This document shows, one piece after another, positions 8,770 through 19,395 of a DNA stretch of 39,857 nucleotides. The stretch's first letter is position 1; every line of letters starts with the position of its first letter. Below the pieces are notes generated by a model that was not told the origin of the DNA, did not search any database, and saw nothing but the letters and a program-made list of their open reading frames with translations. The stretch comes from a virus: the IMG/VR virus record IMGVR_UViG_3300021438_000031, positions 1-39,857 of that record; one strand, 5' to 3'. The translations under genes were made by a program, and so were the position numbers.

Positions 8770-10177
8770 TGGCGACCTCCTCCTTGAGTTGTGAAACCAT
8801 CGCAATCCGTTCCCCGATCCACCGCATGACAGGCACTGCCATTGAGTTGCCAAGAGCCTTGTAGCGAGGACCGTCTGCGGCTGGCTTGTTGCGGTAGGTG
8901 ACAAGCGTGTAGTCGTCCGGGAAACCTTGCAGACGCTCGCACTCGCGGGGCGTGAGGCGGCGGACGACCATGCCAACTAGCGCTTGAGGAATCTCATCCC
9001 CCGTGGCACTTCGCCCTTTCCTGAGCGTGTGCGTAACTTCGGCGCACGCTTGGTTGTATGCGTCAAACGCAACAGCAGGCACGGCATCTCCAAATGTCCC
9101 ATTTGGATTCCTGAGCGTATGCGTCACATCGGAGAATGATTGGTTGTACGTGTCGAACGCTACTGCCTGGCCCCGCTCAGACACCGTATAGGCCGGATCT
9201 CCGGCATGACCAATTCCGTGGCCAGGTGGACCACCAGATCCAGTTGCACGCCTGTTTGTTTCCTTGTCGCCGCGAGATGTTTGGCGCAGGTCAATCGGCG
9301 CTGCCACCGCCAGCGTGCAGCACCCGCCCTTCGATCCGCAAGCAATGGCATGCGTTGAGCCGTCGGTGCTGCTGATTGGGTCTTGAGTAGGGTGAAACGC
9401 AATGACACCAAAGCCCCGAGATTGCTTTTGCATGCCAGATGCCTGCAGCGATCCACACTTGCTTCCGATCATTGCACAGTTCTGAAAATCAACTGCTTGT
9501 GGTGCCGCAAGGACAACGTCATCCTGACCTCTTGATTCGCCGCACCGCTCTACGCCTCTGCCGATGCTTGTAAGGCTTGCCGTAGTTGCCCTGGTAATTC
9601 CTTTCCCCGCTTTTCCGCGCGACGGAGGATTCCCGAACACGCTTTCGCGCTCAAAAAGTACCGCTGCGGCACGACGCCAGTCTCCAGCGTGTGCGACAAC
9701 GAACACACGGCGACGGCGCTGGGCGACTCCAAACCACTGAGCGTCCAAAACTCTGTAGGCGAACCCATACCCGAGTTCGCCCAACGCCCCGAGGAAGGTG
9801 CCAAAATCCCGTCCTTTGCCGCTACTGAGGACGCCCGGGACGTTTTCCCAAACGATCCATTCGGGCTTGAGGACAGAAGCAAGCTGGACGAATCGGAGGG
9901 CCAAGTTGCCACGCGGGTCGTCCAAGCCGCCTCGCAGTCCTGCAACTGAGAAGGATTGGCACGGGGTTCCTCCGACCAGAAGCTCAACTGGGCCGAGCTC
10001 ATCAAGCATCTCCTCTGTGATCTTGGTCATGTCGCCCACGTTCTTGAAAGCAAAGTGGTGATCCACGACCGTTGCCGGAAACGGTTCGATCTCGCTCGTC
10101 CATGCGCACTCCCAGCCCAGATGCCGCCAGGCGACATGAGCCGCTCCGATGCCGTCGCAAACGCTTGCGTACCTCAC
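8756..10177 (-). CDS. dcm: C5 cytosine-specific DNA methyltransferase
   Basis: A 473-residue protein starting with GTG at 10177 after AAAGGAGG. Motif I-like YASVCDGIGAAHVAW, catalytic motif IV GGTPCQSFS (Cys73), motif VI ENVPG (111-115), motif VIII QRRRRVF (153-159), motif IX RLTPRECERLQGFPDDYT and motif X ALGNSMAVPV are all present. The enzyme should be active. Between motifs VIII and IX is an expanded target-recognition region with two tandem copies of an AFD-YNQ...VTHTLR unit. No restriction partner is adjacent, so protection from host restriction is the likely role. Target sequence unknown. Confidence 0.92.
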   Translation of the reverse strand: MRYASVCDGIGAAHVAWRHLGWECAWTSEIEPFPATVVDHHFAFKNVGDMTKITEEMLDELGPVELLVGGTPCQSFSVAGLRGGLDDPRGNLALRFVQLASVLKPEWIVWENVPGVLSSGKGRDFGTFLGALGELGYGFAYRVLDAQWFGVAQRRRRVFVVAHAGDWRRAAAVLFERESVFGNPPSRGKAGKGITRATTASLTSIGRGVERCGESRGQDDVVLAAPQAVDFQNCAMIGSKCGSLQASGMQKQSRGFGVIAFHPTQDPISSTDGSTHAIACGSKGGCCTLAVAAPIDLRQTSRGDKETNRRATGSGGPPGHGIGHAGDPAYTVSERGQAVAFDTYNQSFSDVTHTLRNPNGTFGDAVPAVAFDAYNQACAEVTHTLRKGRSATGDEIPQALVGMVVRRLTPRECERLQGFPDDYTLVTYRNKPAADGPRYKALGNSMAVPVMRWIGERIAMVSQLKEEVANVVD

Positions 10178-11088
10178 GCCACGACCTCCTTTGGTTCAGC
10201 GGCGTTACGCTTCGCAATCTCGGCGTCGAGCTTTGCCCGCCTCTCCGGCGTCAGGTCGCCGGAGGCAACGGCAGCGTCAGCCTCGTCGCAGATGGCCTCA
10301 AATTCCGCCACCGTCTTTGCGGCCCTGACACGGTCGAGCCACCCCGCGGCCTTCGGCTTCGCCGCGGCCGCACCGAAAATCCCGGCCAGCTGGCCGATCT
10401 CCATCGGCATCTCGGCCGGCAGGTCGAACCGGTTCTTCGCGTCCCACGCCGCGCTGTGCTCGGCGTGCATCACGCGATCCTTCCCGCCGGTGGCCTTCAG
10501 CCGGCCGTCGCTGCCCTCGACCAGCTTCGTGCGGTAGTTGCAAAACAGCAGCAGATCGCACCACTCGCGGAGCAGCGGCGCCGACTGCTTGGTCAGCTTG
10601 AGCTCATAGCGGTCGAAGCCGTCGGTCTGATCCGGGGGGGAGGTCCTTTTCACCGTCGAGTGAGCCACGAACACCACGTTGATGCCCTGGCCGATCAGCA
10701 CGTCGCACGACGCGAGGAACCGGGTCCAGTGCTCGGCCACCATCGTGTAGCCCTTGCCGAACCCGAAATCCTCGATCGATTTCTTTCCGCTCGTCTTGAG
10801 CAACCACTCGATCAGCAGCTTCTCCGACCAGTCGGCCGAGTCGATCACGATCGTCTTGAATCCCTGAGCGTTCACTGCGAGCTCAGTGAGCGCGAGCGTG
10901 AGGCTCTTCCAGTCGTGGATGGACGCACGGGCCACGTCGATGTGGTTCGTGCCGTCCTCCGTGTCGAGCACTAGGGGGGCTGGAAACTGCGTCGCAAGCG
11001 TCGTCTTCCCGATGCCCTCGATGCCGTAAATCGTCCCGCGAACCGCCGCCTGGCGGCGGCCGCGTGTGATCTGCAAAACTCCGCTCAT
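10174..11088 (-). CDS. Sak4-like RecA-fold ATPase (AAA_24)
   Basis: A 304-residue protein. Walker A GIEGIGKTT is at 22-30 and Walker B TIVIDSAD at 79-86; FVAHSTVKRT fits the family's motif after Walker B. This is the AAA_24 arrangement of phage Sak4 single-strand annealing/recombination proteins and related Erf-neighbour ATPases. The C-terminal 90 residues (WLDRVRAAKTVAEFEAICDE...) form a separate helical domain. AAGGAG precedes the ATG. The nearby SSB-like and resolvase-like genes complete a plausible phage recombination set. Confidence 0.82.
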   Translation of the reverse strand: MSGVLQITRGRRQAAVRGTIYGIEGIGKTTLATQFPAPLVLDTEDGTNHIDVARASIHDWKSLTLALTELAVNAQGFKTIVIDSADWSEKLLIEWLLKTSGKKSIEDFGFGKGYTMVAEHWTRFLASCDVLIGQGINVVFVAHSTVKRTSPPDQTDGFDRYELKLTKQSAPLLREWCDLLLFCNYRTKLVEGSDGRLKATGGKDRVMHAEHSAAWDAKNRFDLPAEMPMEIGQLAGIFGAAAAKPKAAGWLDRVRAAKTVAEFEAICDEADAAVASGDLTPERRAKLDAEIAKRNAAEPKEVVA

Positions 11089-11315
11089 GTCGAGCTCCTT
11101 TCGTCATTGCGAACAATGCGTGCAGCCTCGGCCAGCGCCGTCCTGAGCGCCAGAACATCACCGGGCTCCACGCGGTACAGCCCACGATCCAACTGCTCCA
11201 TGCCGGCGACCAGCACGCGAGCCATACGAAACACCCTGCCCATCGCGGCACCGCGGTCACAATTCCGCTGCGACCTCGACCTGGCTGCACGGTCAGGCAT
11301 GAAATTCGTCGCCAT
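11085..11315 (-). CDS. Small hypothetical protein downstream of csrA
   Basis: A 76-residue protein. ATG at 11315 is chosen because AAAGGAG lies 9 bases before it; an ATG at 11321 and a TTG at 11324 are alternatives. It overlaps the csrA 3' end by 23 bases. The C-terminal half is helical (GDVLALRTALAEAARIVRND). No family recognised. Confidence 0.55.
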   Translation of the reverse strand: MATNFMPDRAARSRSQRNCDRGAAMGRVFRMARVLVAGMEQLDRGLYRVEPGDVLALRTALAEAARIVRNDERSST

Positions 11316-11514
11316 CTGCATCAACTCCTTTCGGTTTCTTCTGAATCACCCACGGATCCATCCGCTCGAGCAACTCGTGCCTCAGCACCGTCACGCCCTG
11401 TGGGGCTTTGACGCCGAGCTTCACGCGTCCTCTCTCGATCGAGGTGACCATCACCTCGATGTCGAGTCCTTCAAACACAATCGCTTCATCAACTTTCCGA
11501 GAAAGAATCAGCAT
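11293..11514 (-). CDS. csrA: CsrA family RNA-binding translational regulator
   Basis: A 73-residue CsrA/RsmA homologue. MLILSRKVDEAIVFEGLDIE is the N-terminal strand with Leu4 and Arg6 conserved. RGRVKLGVKAPQGVTVLRHEL is the canonical core, with Arg45 at the position equivalent to RNA-contacting Arg44 in E. coli. One residue is inserted in the strand 1-2 loop, and the C-terminal tail KKPKGVDADGDEF is phage-specific. CsrA dimers bind GGA in hairpin loops, often over Shine-Dalgarno sites. AAGGAG sits 8 bases before its ATG. See the candidate site at 12499-12512. Confidence 0.93.
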   Translation of the reverse strand: MLILSRKVDEAIVFEGLDIEVMVTSIERGRVKLGVKAPQGVTVLRHELLERMDPWVIQKKPKGVDADGDEFHA

Positions 11515-12044: not shown

Positions 12045-12201
12045 CCGTTGCCTCCTAGTGATAAAGACCCGCTCGGCGTCGTGCTCTGCGGGATCCGTGC
12101 TTCCTTGCAATGCCGGCTCCGCCGGCTTCCTTCCGCCCAACGTCTCCGACGTCGAGCGGTCCTGTTCGTTCGTGGGGGTCAGTCCTGTTCGTGTGGGGCG
12201 C
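12045..12201 (-). promoter_or_regulatory. Probable 5' leader with repeated GGA motifs
   Basis: This stretch between the P2 promoter and the first starts of the csrA-containing group has no gene. On the minus strand it holds two direct copies of ACGAACAGGAC (plus positions 12159-12169 and 12182-12192), a GCCGGC-GGA-GCCGGC inverted repeat (12112-12126) that puts GGA in the loop, and further GGA triplets up to the AGGAGG near 12051. Multiple GGA motifs are what CsrA-controlled leaders contain, so autoregulation is possible. Confidence 0.4.
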
Positions 12202-12229
12202 AGTGTACGAGTGTTCAGTTATCCGTCAA
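12202..12229 (-). promoter_or_regulatory. Leftward promoter P2
   Basis: On the minus strand, TTGACG (12224-12229) is 5/6 to the -35 consensus and TACACT (12202-12207) is 4/6 to the -10, with a 16-base spacer. It would transcribe toward the genes from 11992 leftwards, including csrA. Confidence 0.5.
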
Positions 12230-12335
12230 GCGATTTTGTGCGAGCGCAAACTGCTGAAAAACAAGGACAAAAAGACTTCTAGAAATTTTCCCGCTAAGAC
12301 GTGCCCAACCGTGCCAAGCAATGATTGTCCGATCT

Positions 12336-12346
12336 CGTGCAAACCT
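12336..12346. repeat. CGTGCAAACCT repeat, possible operator
   Basis: CGTGCAAACCT occurs here, preceded by GATCT, and again at 12540-12550, preceded by GAT, inside the P1 spacer. Two copies 204 bases apart in the control region, one inside a promoter, suggest binding sites of one regulator. The match is short. Confidence 0.35.
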
Positions 12347-12497
12347 ATGCAGAAAAAAACTTTCCAATCAAAGCGATCAGAAAGTCCAACACGCCAGCAA
12401 TCGTTTGAGCGGCCTGCGTGTCGCTGCCAATCTCTTGGCCAAAACGCACAAGCACCAAACATCGCATGGCTTCGTTCCATCGAATGCGAGAGATCAT
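12345..12497 (-). CDS. Small protein with hydrophobic C-terminal helix
   Basis: A 50-residue protein starting at 12497. The N-terminus is basic (MISRIRWNEAMRCLVLVRFG) and the C-terminus is a membrane-type helix (QTIAGVLDFLIALIGKFFSA). It is the first gene after the strong P1 promoter, with a leader of about 25 bases. Its Shine-Dalgarno GGAG lies in the loop of a 5-base-pair hairpin, one base from the ATG stem side. Function unknown. Its position makes it the first early product, and the hairpin suggests translational control. Confidence 0.55.
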   Translation of the reverse strand: MISRIRWNEAMRCLVLVRFGQEIGSDTQAAQTIAGVLDFLIALIGKFFSA

Positions 12498-12498
12498 T

Positions 12499-12512
12499 GA
12501 CAACTCCTTGTC
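12499..12512 (-). promoter_or_regulatory. Hairpin with Shine-Dalgarno in loop, candidate CsrA site
   Basis: On the minus strand GACAAGGAGTTGTC folds as GACAA/TTGTC with loop GGAG. ACAAGGA matches the ACARGGA core of the CsrA consensus, and the GGA falls in the loop as the protein prefers. The same GGAG is the only good Shine-Dalgarno for the ATG at 12497. Binding would block ribosome loading. Confidence 0.6.
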
Positions 12513-12527
12513 GTTGACGCGGGGAAC

Positions 12528-12555
12528 ATTACACAAGATCGTGCAAACCTGTCAA
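12528..12555 (-). promoter_or_regulatory. Leftward early promoter P1
   Basis: On the minus strand a perfect -35 TTGACA (12550-12555) is followed after 16 bases by TGTAAT (12528-12533), 5/6 to the -10 consensus. The spacer contains AGGTTTGCACG, which recurs at 12336-12346, so it may overlap an operator. It is the best promoter seen in the window. Confidence 0.75.
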
Positions 12556-12828: not shown

Positions 12829-13073
12829 GAATGCATACTACGGCCGCAAATCGGCCGGTGAAAATGCGATGGATGCGCAAAAGTTGACACTTCGAACGCC
12901 GCCCCCGTAGGGTTGAGGCAGCCGGGAATTGTCGAGCGGAGGGCATGCAGGTGTACAAACGAACACCTGTATGGTATCTTCGGCATTCCACGGCATGGAG
13001 GCCGGTCTGATCGCGGCTGCGTTCAGCGGCAGTTGGCATGGATGTGTGCCCCAGCCGTTGCTGAGGTGCGCCG
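12829..13073. promoter_or_regulatory. Divergent control region of HTH gene and integrase
   Basis: A 245-base gap that must hold two divergent promoters. I see no convincing -35/-10 pair for either gene. An operator-like palindrome lies at 12948-12969 (separate entry). TTGACA at 12884-12889 on the plus strand lacks a good -10. GAGGTG precedes the integrase start. Confidence 0.4.
12948..12969. promoter_or_regulatory. Operator-like inverted repeat
   Basis: CAGGTGT-ACAAACGA-ACACCTG is a perfect 7-base inverted repeat with an 8-base spacer. Its centre-to-centre geometry is suited to a dimeric helix-turn-helix regulator. It lies about 105 bases before the integrase ATG and 120 before the divergent HTH start. 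Confidence 0.5.
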
Positions 13074-14033
13074 ATGACGATTCGCGAATTGCTCCTGGAC
13101 AGATACGCCCCGCTTCACATGCTCTCGGACCGGACCGTCGAGCTCTACCGGCACACGCTTGACAGGTTCCGCGACTACCTCGCGACGGTGCCCGGCAGGA
13201 TTGACCCTGAGCCCACGCTTGACGACCTTGACGACATAGTCGTCAGCAAGTTTCTGCGGTGGCGTGAGATCACTCCGCACCGCGGGAAGATCGCTGCCCG
13301 CAATAGCGTCCTCAAGGATCGCACGCAGTTGGTCGCCGTCTGGGCTTATGCAAGCAAGAAGAAACTCAAGAACAGCCGCGGAGAGCACGTTGAGTGGCCA
13401 TCGCTGCCACCGTACCGTGCGATTGAGCGCGTGCCGCGTGCATACACGGCCGATGATGTGGCTCGGCTTATCCGTTCCGCGAAGACTCGCAGCGACAAGT
13501 ACAAGGGCACGATCGCCGGCGTGCCGAACGCGTGGTGGTGGTCGACACAAATCTACGTGTCGTGGCTGACGGCCGAGCGTCTGGGCGCGATGCTGGCCCT
13601 GCGGTGGGAGCAGATCGACCTCGATGGGATGCAGATCACGTTTTTGGGACAGACGAGAAAAGGGAAGACGCGTGACATTGTGCGTCCTATCAACCGGCAG
13701 GCGGCCGACATGCTGGCCGCAGGGCAACGCCGCCCGGATGACATTGTCTGGCCGTGGGATCGTAGGCCGACCTCAATCTGGACGAGCCTGCGGCACCTAT
13801 GCAACCGTGCCGGAGTCACCTACAGGGGCTTCCACGGTTTTCGAAAAGCGAGCATCAGCTACTACCATGCGGCGGGGGGTGATGCCACTCGTCTCGCTGA
13901 TCACGATAGGCAGTCGACGACGCGAAAGAGCTATTTCGATCCAAATATCGTGAACGACGGCCCGCGTGCTCCGGACCTGCTGCCACCGCTCGACCTCGGC
14001 GAGGAAGATCCGCCGGAACGGCCGGCTGCGTGA
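13074..14033 (+). CDS. int: Tyrosine recombinase, phage integrase
   Basis: A 319-residue integrase that inserts the phage genome at an attachment site. The N-terminal about 100 residues form the core-binding SAM-like domain. The catalytic domain shows the first Arg in TAERLGAMLALRW (Arg169), a Lys in TRKGKTRDI (196/198), H-x-x-R as HGFR (254-257), a later His in DHDRQ (277) and the nucleophile Tyr287 in RKSYFDP. The hairpin TAERLG replaces the usual TGLR but keeps the Arg. It is on the plus strand, opposite to most genes. I cannot identify attP from one copy of the sequence. Confidence 0.93.
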   Translation: MTIRELLLDRYAPLHMLSDRTVELYRHTLDRFRDYLATVPGRIDPEPTLDDLDDIVVSKFLRWREITPHRGKIAARNSVLKDRTQLVAVWAYASKKKLKNSRGEHVEWPSLPPYRAIERVPRAYTADDVARLIRSAKTRSDKYKGTIAGVPNAWWWSTQIYVSWLTAERLGAMLALRWEQIDLDGMQITFLGQTRKGKTRDIVRPINRQAADMLAAGQRRPDDIVWPWDRRPTSIWTSLRHLCNRAGVTYRGFHGFRKASISYYHAAGGDATRLADHDRQSTTRKSYFDPNIVNDGPRAPDLLPPLDLGEEDPPERPAA

Positions 14034-18318: not shown

Positions 18319-18540
18319 CTACCTCTGAATCTTGCTGTGGTCGACGTTAAATCCGATGCGGCAGGCCCAGCAGCGGCAGGTGTTTTCTGCGGTCGCCGGC
18401 CGGGAGGTGATCACGCCGATCCCGGCCCTGCGGAGCGGCTGGTAGTGCACGTGCTCCTCACTGGGCGGAGCCAGCGGTTCGCGGCCGTTTGGCCCGTGCC
18501 GGAACAGCGTGTCGGCAAGTCGAGTGTGTTCTGACTTCAC
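18319..18540 (-). CDS. Small hypothetical protein with C-x2-C
   Basis: A 73-residue protein starting with GTG at 18540, preceded by AGGAG. It contains a C-x-C-x2-C cluster near the C-terminus (ENTCRCWACRIGFNVD) and a His/Pro-rich middle. A small metal site is possible. No family recognised; moderate doubt about its reality. Confidence 0.5.
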   Translation of the reverse strand: MKSEHTRLADTLFRHGPNGREPLAPPSEEHVHYQPLRRAGIGVITSRPATAENTCRCWACRIGFNVDHSKIQR

Positions 18541-18570
18541 ATGCTGCTCCTACCGTCATTGTACCTTTGT

Positions 18571-19395
18571 TCAGGTGGGCGGCGTGCAGCCCGGGCCGCG
18601 GAGTTTGCCGTCGTTCAGGTGCGGCCAGAGCTCGTGAGAGTGGCATGCCGCAAGCAGGTTCCAGGCTGCATGCCCGAGGTGCGGCTCGCTGCGGTCGCCG
18701 GCGAGGAACTGGTAGACGTGGGCGATCGCGTGGTTGAGCAGGTCGTGCACTGGCATGCCACGCTCCCAGTTAAAGTCGCTGTACTTCTCAGCACCTTCCG
18801 CACACGCTCGAGCTACCTCGCGAATGCCCACTGGCGAGACGAGGTCGTAGCGGAACTCCTCAAACGTGCTCGACCGCACGGCCCCTGTTCCGAACTTCGC
18901 CGTGGTGCCTGGCTGCGGCGTCACCGCAGCCTCGTTCAAGGCAGACGCATCTCCAAACACCCTGGATTCCAGAGGGTCTGCTGCATACGGATCGCGGAGA
19001 CGCTCGTGGAGCTCACGCTGCCTCTCCCTCACGCCGGCCCATGCAGCCTCCAGCTGCTCATGATCAATGCCTGAGACGTTGATCGCGTCTTCAAACACGG
19101 CCTCCGGCACCGGCTCGGCCGGCGTCAGCGTGCAGTCGGCGTATCCTTCTGGAAGGTTGAGGGCAGGGGGGGCGTGGCATTTCCCACCGTCGCAGCAACC
19201 GCTCCGTGCTTCAATGGCGGCCCGCATGGCCGCGTTGTCCTGCTCCAGTTCAGCGATCGTGCTCATCATCTGCTCCCGTTCCTTGAGAACCCTGGCCACG
19301 TCGGCCGCCAGCGCCCCGCTGGTGCCTGTCCATTGGCCCTGAAACCGATACGCCCGCCGGCGGGCTTCCGCGATGTATTCGTCCGTGAGTCTCAC
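18571..19395 (-). CDS. dATP/dGTP diphosphohydrolase-like protein (DUF5664)
   Basis: A 274-residue protein starting with GTG at 19395 (GTGA overlap). The C-terminal about 100 residues fit the phage dATP/dGTP diphosphohydrolase N-terminal-type domain: FRYDLVSPVGIREVARACAE, GAEKYSDFNWERGMP, LLNHAIAHVYQFLAGDRSEP and HLGHAAWNLLAACHSHELWP, an all-helical MazG-like fold with metal-binding Glu/Asp. The N-terminal 160 residues are a helical extension with a CC-x4-C cluster. It would hydrolyse purine deoxynucleotides, shaping the pool during infection. No PurZ-type gene is visible, so a 2-aminoadenine genome is not implied. Confidence 0.75.
   Translation of the reverse strand: MRLTDEYIAEARRRAYRFQGQWTGTSGALAADVARVLKEREQMMSTIAELEQDNAAMRAAIEARSGCCDGGKCHAPPALNLPEGYADCTLTPAEPVPEAVFEDAINVSGIDHEQLEAAWAGVRERQRELHERLRDPYAADPLESRVFGDASALNEAAVTPQPGTTAKFGTGAVRSSTFEEFRYDLVSPVGIREVARACAEGAEKYSDFNWERGMPVHDLLNHAIAHVYQFLAGDRSEPHLGHAAWNLLAACHSHELWPHLNDGKLRGPGCTPPT

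Follow-up and report, generated by a model that had tools for sequence, protein, structure and literature searches.

The window analysed here is a complete virus record of 39,857 bp (IMGVR_UViG_3300021438_000031) that belongs to a family of temperate phages with cellular relatives exclusively in Planctomycetota. It encodes an integrase, a small HTH/excisionase-like protein, CsrA, a Sak4-like ATPase, a cytosine methylase, and tail genes, and its region of interest had no blastn match among annotated phages. Among genome assemblies, eight contain a relative of the small gene described below; all eight are labelled as Planctomycetota/Planctomycetaceae or Kuenenia, and each carries 3–6 csrA copies. 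The first-pass annotation had listed an intact phage csrA on the minus strand (11293–11514; 73 aa), and this is borne out: the product matches Pfam PF02599 (E 1.9e-17; 63.4 bits, cut-off 27) as well as solved CsrA/RsmE chains, it retains the RNA-contacting arginine (E. coli R44; VTVLRHEL aligned to VAVHREEI), and dN/dS values of 0.12–0.27 within its clade indicate purifying selection. Carriage of csrA by phages is already known (PMC7366521, PMC8450108). The gene lies inside an operon headed by a structured RNA (see below) and is followed downstream by a Sak4-like single-stranded DNA annealing ATPase (10174–11088, minus strand; Pfam AAA_24, E 4e-50; PHROG 124).

The early leftward operon opens with a conserved gene for a protein of 50 residues (12345–12497, minus strand; core SLVLVRxGQExGxxS). 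That the start at 12497 opens a real gene, as previously annotated, is supported by a relative with 56% identity from a single search and by 142 relatives from an alignment-based search, 80 of which were retrieved; neither Pfam nor PHROG contained a match to the protein. The predicted promoter P1 can likewise be read directly in front of it on the minus strand (12528–12555), as TTGACA (12555–12550) and TGTAAT (12533–12528) separated by 16 nt. The P1 spacer holds a palindrome in relatives, for example TACCGATAnCGGTA, and reads TTGCACGATCTTGTGTAA in the window. Such palindromes occupy the −35/−10 spacers of small-gene or early promoters in L004, L005, L002, and L044 and are probably the operator of a phage repressor; in place of the palindrome, the window has the half-repeat AGGTTTGCACGA twice (12331–12352 and 12528–12555). 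A terminator-like hairpin of 14 pairs with a T-run (12357–12387) overlaps the end of the small gene.

The only Shine-Dalgarno sequence of this gene, GGAG, does sit in the loop of GACAA-GGAG-UUGUC (12512–12499, minus strand), an arrangement that the first-pass annotation had called a near-ideal CsrA hairpin. CsrA and RsmE contact the A two bases before GGA. Since the loop is a tetraloop, this A is buried in the stem, so the hairpin exposes a GGA that overlaps the Shine-Dalgarno sequence and yet departs from the ANGGAN hexaloop that CsrA prefers (PMC7652899), with the A residues before GGA paired. Nor does the structure stand out: its local fold gains no stability over dinucleotide-shuffled sequence (z = 0.38), and in 6 of 115 GGA-containing start contexts of the window, five or more pairs close a loop with GGA. 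Among 1,730 start contexts of related phages, GGA falls in a loop of 3–10 nt closed by at least five pairs in 4.6%, compared to 3.1% with shuffled flanks, and the tetraloop register shows no enrichment over all gene starts (9 versus 7.2 expected). The description as near-ideal is therefore not borne out. Conservation in relatives, set beforehand as the refuting test, gave a divided answer. L007, the sole relative sharing the architecture of the window, keeps the GGA in a loop at the same place with a different stem (CAACG-ACACGGAGGA-CGUUG); in four other csrA-bearing phages (L003, L004, L005, and L009), the small gene starts within the end of a primase-like gene and the hairpin is absent.

Could the hairpin at 12499–12512 nevertheless be a functional CsrA operator by itself? 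Its ACAAGGA, predicted to have the GGA mostly unpaired under a stem of probability 0.55–0.78 in transcripts starting at 12518–12527, would suit such a role, as would the loop retained in L007, the ANGGAN hexaloop found at the Shine-Dalgarno sequence of many relatives, and a second GGA hexaloop, UUCG-AUGGAA-CGAA (12471–12484, minus strand), 29 nt after the first GGA. The latter is kept in L007 with the loop AUGGAG; however, it lies within the small gene and is also coding, and in its sequence context it forms with a probability of 0.09–0.13. Together with the paired contact base, this makes an operator at this very site rather unlikely, and in view of the chance-level frequency and unconserved stem we reject the idea that the flagged hairpin is special. 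We regard it as a weak or degenerate version of the Shine-Dalgarno hairpin of its family.

That family hairpin is far better defined. Across small-gene starts less than 80% alike, drawn from the wider family, 17 of 47 place the Shine-Dalgarno sequence in an NNGGAN hexaloop closed by at least four pairs, versus 5.5 ± 1.8 with shuffled flanks (0/200 shuffles). With one exception the loops are AAGGAG or ACGGAG; phage stems read GGCC/GGCC, and chromosomal copies have GUCGUC/GGCGAC or CACC/GGUG. Phages with the canonical hexaloop are mostly devoid of csrA, and their cellular relatives carry the 3–6 copies mentioned above. CsrA gating of the early leftward operon, as proposed from the window alone, thus gains support at the level of the family but not from the window's own non-canonical, unconserved hairpin. 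It is a fair model, whose best support comes from the structured GGA-rich RNA and the integrase leader described below rather than from the flagged hairpin. On the other hand, we rejected the idea that CsrA-type start hairpins form a large regulon throughout the phage: the excess of 37 versus 8.1 counted by contexts shrinks to 21 versus 14.4 once related genes are counted once, and most of it comes from the small-gene family.

Two further start hairpins came to light. Phages without csrA carry a ribosome-binding-site cassette, CACG-AAAGGATG(or AG)-CGTG, directly before the ATG of unrelated genes (L039, L041, L044, L045, L056, L059, L060, and L066). At three host csrA loci (L132, L133, and L137), fliW-like genes have their Shine-Dalgarno sequence in GGCA-AAGGAG-UGCC, a CsrA-type hairpin adjoining csrA.

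The same early operon contains, 330 bases downstream of the flagged hairpin, a structured RNA of ~108 nt (12057–12164, minus strand) between the RNA/csrA promoter and the next start codon, in a block conserved across the whole csrA clade. From its 5′ end, it consists of AGGA, hairpin 1 with a GGA triloop, a CGGAAGGAA linker, hairpin 2 with another GGA triloop, a GC-AAGGAA-GC hexaloop, and a 3′ stem-loop with a U-rich tail. RNAalifold on eight csrA-clade sequences recovered the two GGA-triloop hairpins, the hexaloop (GC-ANGGAN-GC), and the 3′ stem-loop, with 99.6% of cells paired and three pairs doubly changed. In a 43-sequence alignment, 93.8% of cells were paired, versus 70.1% after shuffling (0/500) and 33–41% with slid partners, and double changes affected 26 of 28 pairs; this alignment was fitted to the covariance model, which biases the count towards structure, although the slid controls lie far lower. 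The prediction that RNAalifold itself made on these 43 rows comprised 24 pairs, 22 of them with double changes, and 65 distinct sequences from a separate search were 92.0% paired (versus 77.9%). A coding explanation for the region was discarded, as 1-nt indels in L007 and L009 break the frame, and Rfam held no matching family. Comparative sequence analysis hence establishes 12057–12164 as a member of a real RNA family with strong covariation.

What the family conserves in its loops is GGA. There are about seven conserved GGA motifs in the window RNA and 5–10 per RNA overall (mean 7.5, versus 3.7 in shuffled sequences), with five or more conserved sites—the 5′ end, the loop of hairpin 1, the linker, the loop of hairpin 2, and the hexaloop—amid stems that vary. 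Wherever phage rows contain hairpin 2 (40 rows), its loop is GGA, while all six of its pairs vary and its closing pair switches between C-G (23) and U-A (18). In the hexaloop (AAGGAA 11, AGGGAC 9, AAGGAC 7, ACGGAA 5, ACGGAC 3), A and GGA are fixed and the N positions vary, which is the CsrA/RsmE pattern; its closing pair covaries, and just two closing pairs are conserved. Hairpins 1 and 2 expose their GGA as a triloop, not as the preferred hexaloop. A DNA pattern that fixes the GGA of the linker, hairpin 2, and the hexaloop yielded a second set, of 88 viral contigs, in which these sites are thus non-independent; of the sites outside the pattern, the 5′ GGA and the GGA of hairpin 1 were each present in 63 of 65 sequences. 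GGA in loops is known as a CsrA site, also in multi-site sRNAs (PMC7652899, PMC9928087).

The RNA is present in more than 100 viral contigs. Most small-gene relatives gave a hit to the covariance model, located about 300–1,000 nt downstream of the small gene on the strand of the operon, and nearly all matches are oriented with the operon. The association holds in the opposite direction: among loci found via the RNA alone, outside the small-gene set and with enough upstream sequence, 40 of 46 have the small gene (47–50 aa) within 1.5 kb upstream. In most phages, the RNA is flanked by a stop codon and the following start, with 15–50 nt separating it from recT/Sak4-type genes downstream; 64 of 90 downstream genes fall in one linked group, and those sampled were RecT or AAA_24/Sak4-type. 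In the window's clade, it is the csrA operon that follows. The RNA has its own promoter in this csrA clade and is intercistronic elsewhere. Few of its parts are better conserved than the 3′ stem-loop, behind which U's are common; because this variable U-tract is poorly kept (absent in L049, L057, and L053), an independent small RNA is uncertain.

A strict tie between the RNA and phage csrA was rejected, since most RNA-bearing phages have no csrA nearby; the partner would then be host CsrA. An origin from a host Csr RNA was likewise dismissed: one of 297 host-class genomes has the RNA, before a Sak4-like gene and apparently in a prophage. L014 proved to be a chance match to a short DNA pattern. 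Two stretches from a host assembly (L168, 1501–1588; L169, 1501–1587) contain several GGA-triloop hairpins and match the RNA model weakly with a different layout; repeats, or else a Csr RNA of the host, could account for them.

The position of the RNA invites other explanations. A compact, multi-stem element that sits in an early operon before recombination genes and is tightly paired with a small gene (the 40 of 46 loci above) might be a put/nut-type element for processive antitermination, acting alone or with the 47–50-residue protein to allow read-through of the early operon. The put RNAs of HK022, which lie downstream of early promoters and consist of two stems in ~70 nt (PMC9378689), are likewise structured RNAs of an early phage operon, but no common sequence or structure was found, and the RNA described here lies hundreds of bases into the operon and has no Rfam match. 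It also keeps GGA in at least five structural contexts, with a hexaloop that fits the CsrA consensus. To our knowledge, conserved GGA loops are not a known feature of put RNA, and we consider antitermination unlikely. The highly conserved 3′ stem-loop, often with U's behind it, and the stop-to-start location in most phages would equally suit an intercistronic attenuator or an mRNA processing or stability element unrelated to CsrA. Yet in L049, L057, and L053, the U-tract is lost while the GGA loops persist, and six further GGA motifs would be superfluous for a pure terminator, leaving this option quite improbable. That the inverted repeats act as DNA—as operators, recombination sites, or replication sites, in keeping with the nearby replication/recombination genes and strong operator-like boxes—is very improbable, given that the loops are conserved and the stem sequences are not, that matches follow operon orientation, and that G-U pairs outnumber A-C pairs by 40 to 21 in the RNA alignment, which identifies the operon strand as the RNA strand.

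The RNA/csrA operon is preceded by a candidate promoter on the minus strand (TTGACG-16-TACACT; 12202–12229), whose −10 box overlaps a LexA-like box, TGTACGAGTGTTCA (12204–12217), kept at the same position in most of the csrA clade. The underlying pattern, TGWAC-N4-GTWCA, occurs twice in the window, with 0.06 occurrences expected, and it recurs upstream of recA in three host genomes with a readable upstream region; a match with one mismatch lies upstream of lexA. From these positions, the pattern is probably the host LexA box, on which a literature search found no paper. The other perfect copy in the window, TGTACCTTTGTTCA (18560–18573), lies about 20 nt upstream of a leftward ORF (18319–18540). 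A one-mismatch box is found at the integrase promoter (12952–12965). At this promoter, 18 of 40 relatives have an exact box and 33 of 40 one with up to one mismatch (0.03 and 0.47 expected, respectively), and because of these 33 the integrase is probably SOS-controlled in the family.

The tyrosine integrase itself (13074–14033, plus strand) is homologous across nearly the whole family, and its leader contains the one ANGGAN hexaloop hairpin on the plus strand of the window, CGGC-AUGGAG-GCCG (12991–13004). The strand that encodes the integrase has a single such hexaloop in seven of seven csrA-clade genomes: each time it is the leader's CGGC-ANGGAN-GCCG, and its loops (AUGGAG, AAGGAU, ACGGAU, and ACGGAG) differ at the N positions only. 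Other stems present the motif at the same leader site in L036 (UGUC-AUGGAA-GACA), L039 (UGGC-ACGGAC-GCCA), and L049 (UGGC-AUGGAU-GCCA). A second GGA hairpin of the leader, GGCA-UGGAUGUG-UGCC (13035–13050, plus strand), is conserved in L004, L009, and L025. The leader comes in two types, and for some members the fold predicted for the entire leader competes with the hexaloop hairpin.

Judged on sequence evidence, we put at about even the chance that the early leftward operon is under CsrA-type GGA control at the RNA level, with the ~108-nt multi-site RNA, not the flagged hairpin, as its main element. The wider proposition, to which we give somewhat less than even odds, is that temperate phages of Planctomycetota carry a structured RNA and a small protein, and that the RNA captures host CsrA via about seven GGA sites in a CsrB-like manner, tying CsrA to genes for recombination and lysogeny and, in a single lineage, also to the phage's own csrA under an SOS-type promoter. 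CsrA dimers—the host's and, in the csrA clade, also the phage's own—would bind two or more GGA sites of the RNA, and bound CsrA would set translation of, or read-through into, the recombination or csrA genes. When abundant, the early mRNA could titrate CsrA from other targets; the small-gene ribosome-binding site would be one of these and, for phages of the csrA clade, the integrase leader another. The LexA-like box on the RNA/csrA promoter of that clade would allow DNA damage to turn the circuit on. We infer CsrA binding, its effects on the recombination genes, csrA, and the integrase, as well as titration and SOS timing.

With CsrB, CsrC, RsmY, and RsmZ, the phage RNA shares an ANGGAN hexaloop, a 3′ stem-loop with U's, and numerous GGA motifs placed in hairpin loops as well as in linkers that are single-stranded. 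It differs from them in being short (~108 nt), in residing mostly within early mRNA before recT or Sak4-type genes, in its triloop GGA hairpins, in having no Rfam match, and in occurring in Planctomycetota phages. No report of a phage RNA with a CsrB-like GGA layout was found in the literature searched, which lay mostly outside subscription papers and is not proof of absence. The short GGA hairpins at or near the Shine-Dalgarno sequence in the small-gene family and in the integrase leader resemble CsrA-controlled leaders such as those of glgC, hcnA, and flagellin mRNA, unlike the window's flagged tetraloop with its unconserved stem. Mobile csrA genes in hosts that also have CsrA are familiar from phages and from plasmid RsmQ (PMC7366521, PMC8450108, PMC9928087), and binding to GGA loops is described for a plasmid homologue (PMC9928087). 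The window csrA differs from these in being preceded by a LexA-like promoter and by a GGA RNA that shows covariation, a combination on which the searched literature yielded no report.

For phage csrA, these results provide testable candidate targets within one lysogeny/early region: the multi-GGA RNA, the integrase leader, and the small-gene Shine-Dalgarno hairpin. The RNA family is firm whatever its ligand, being found in more than 100 viral contigs with a near-constant partner gene of 47–50 residues and no Rfam entry. If CsrA is the ligand, the Csr small RNAs would have a viral counterpart in this RNA, which would also give a first view of Csr control in Planctomycetota, and phages of planctomycete bacteria may use or titrate the CsrA of their hosts.
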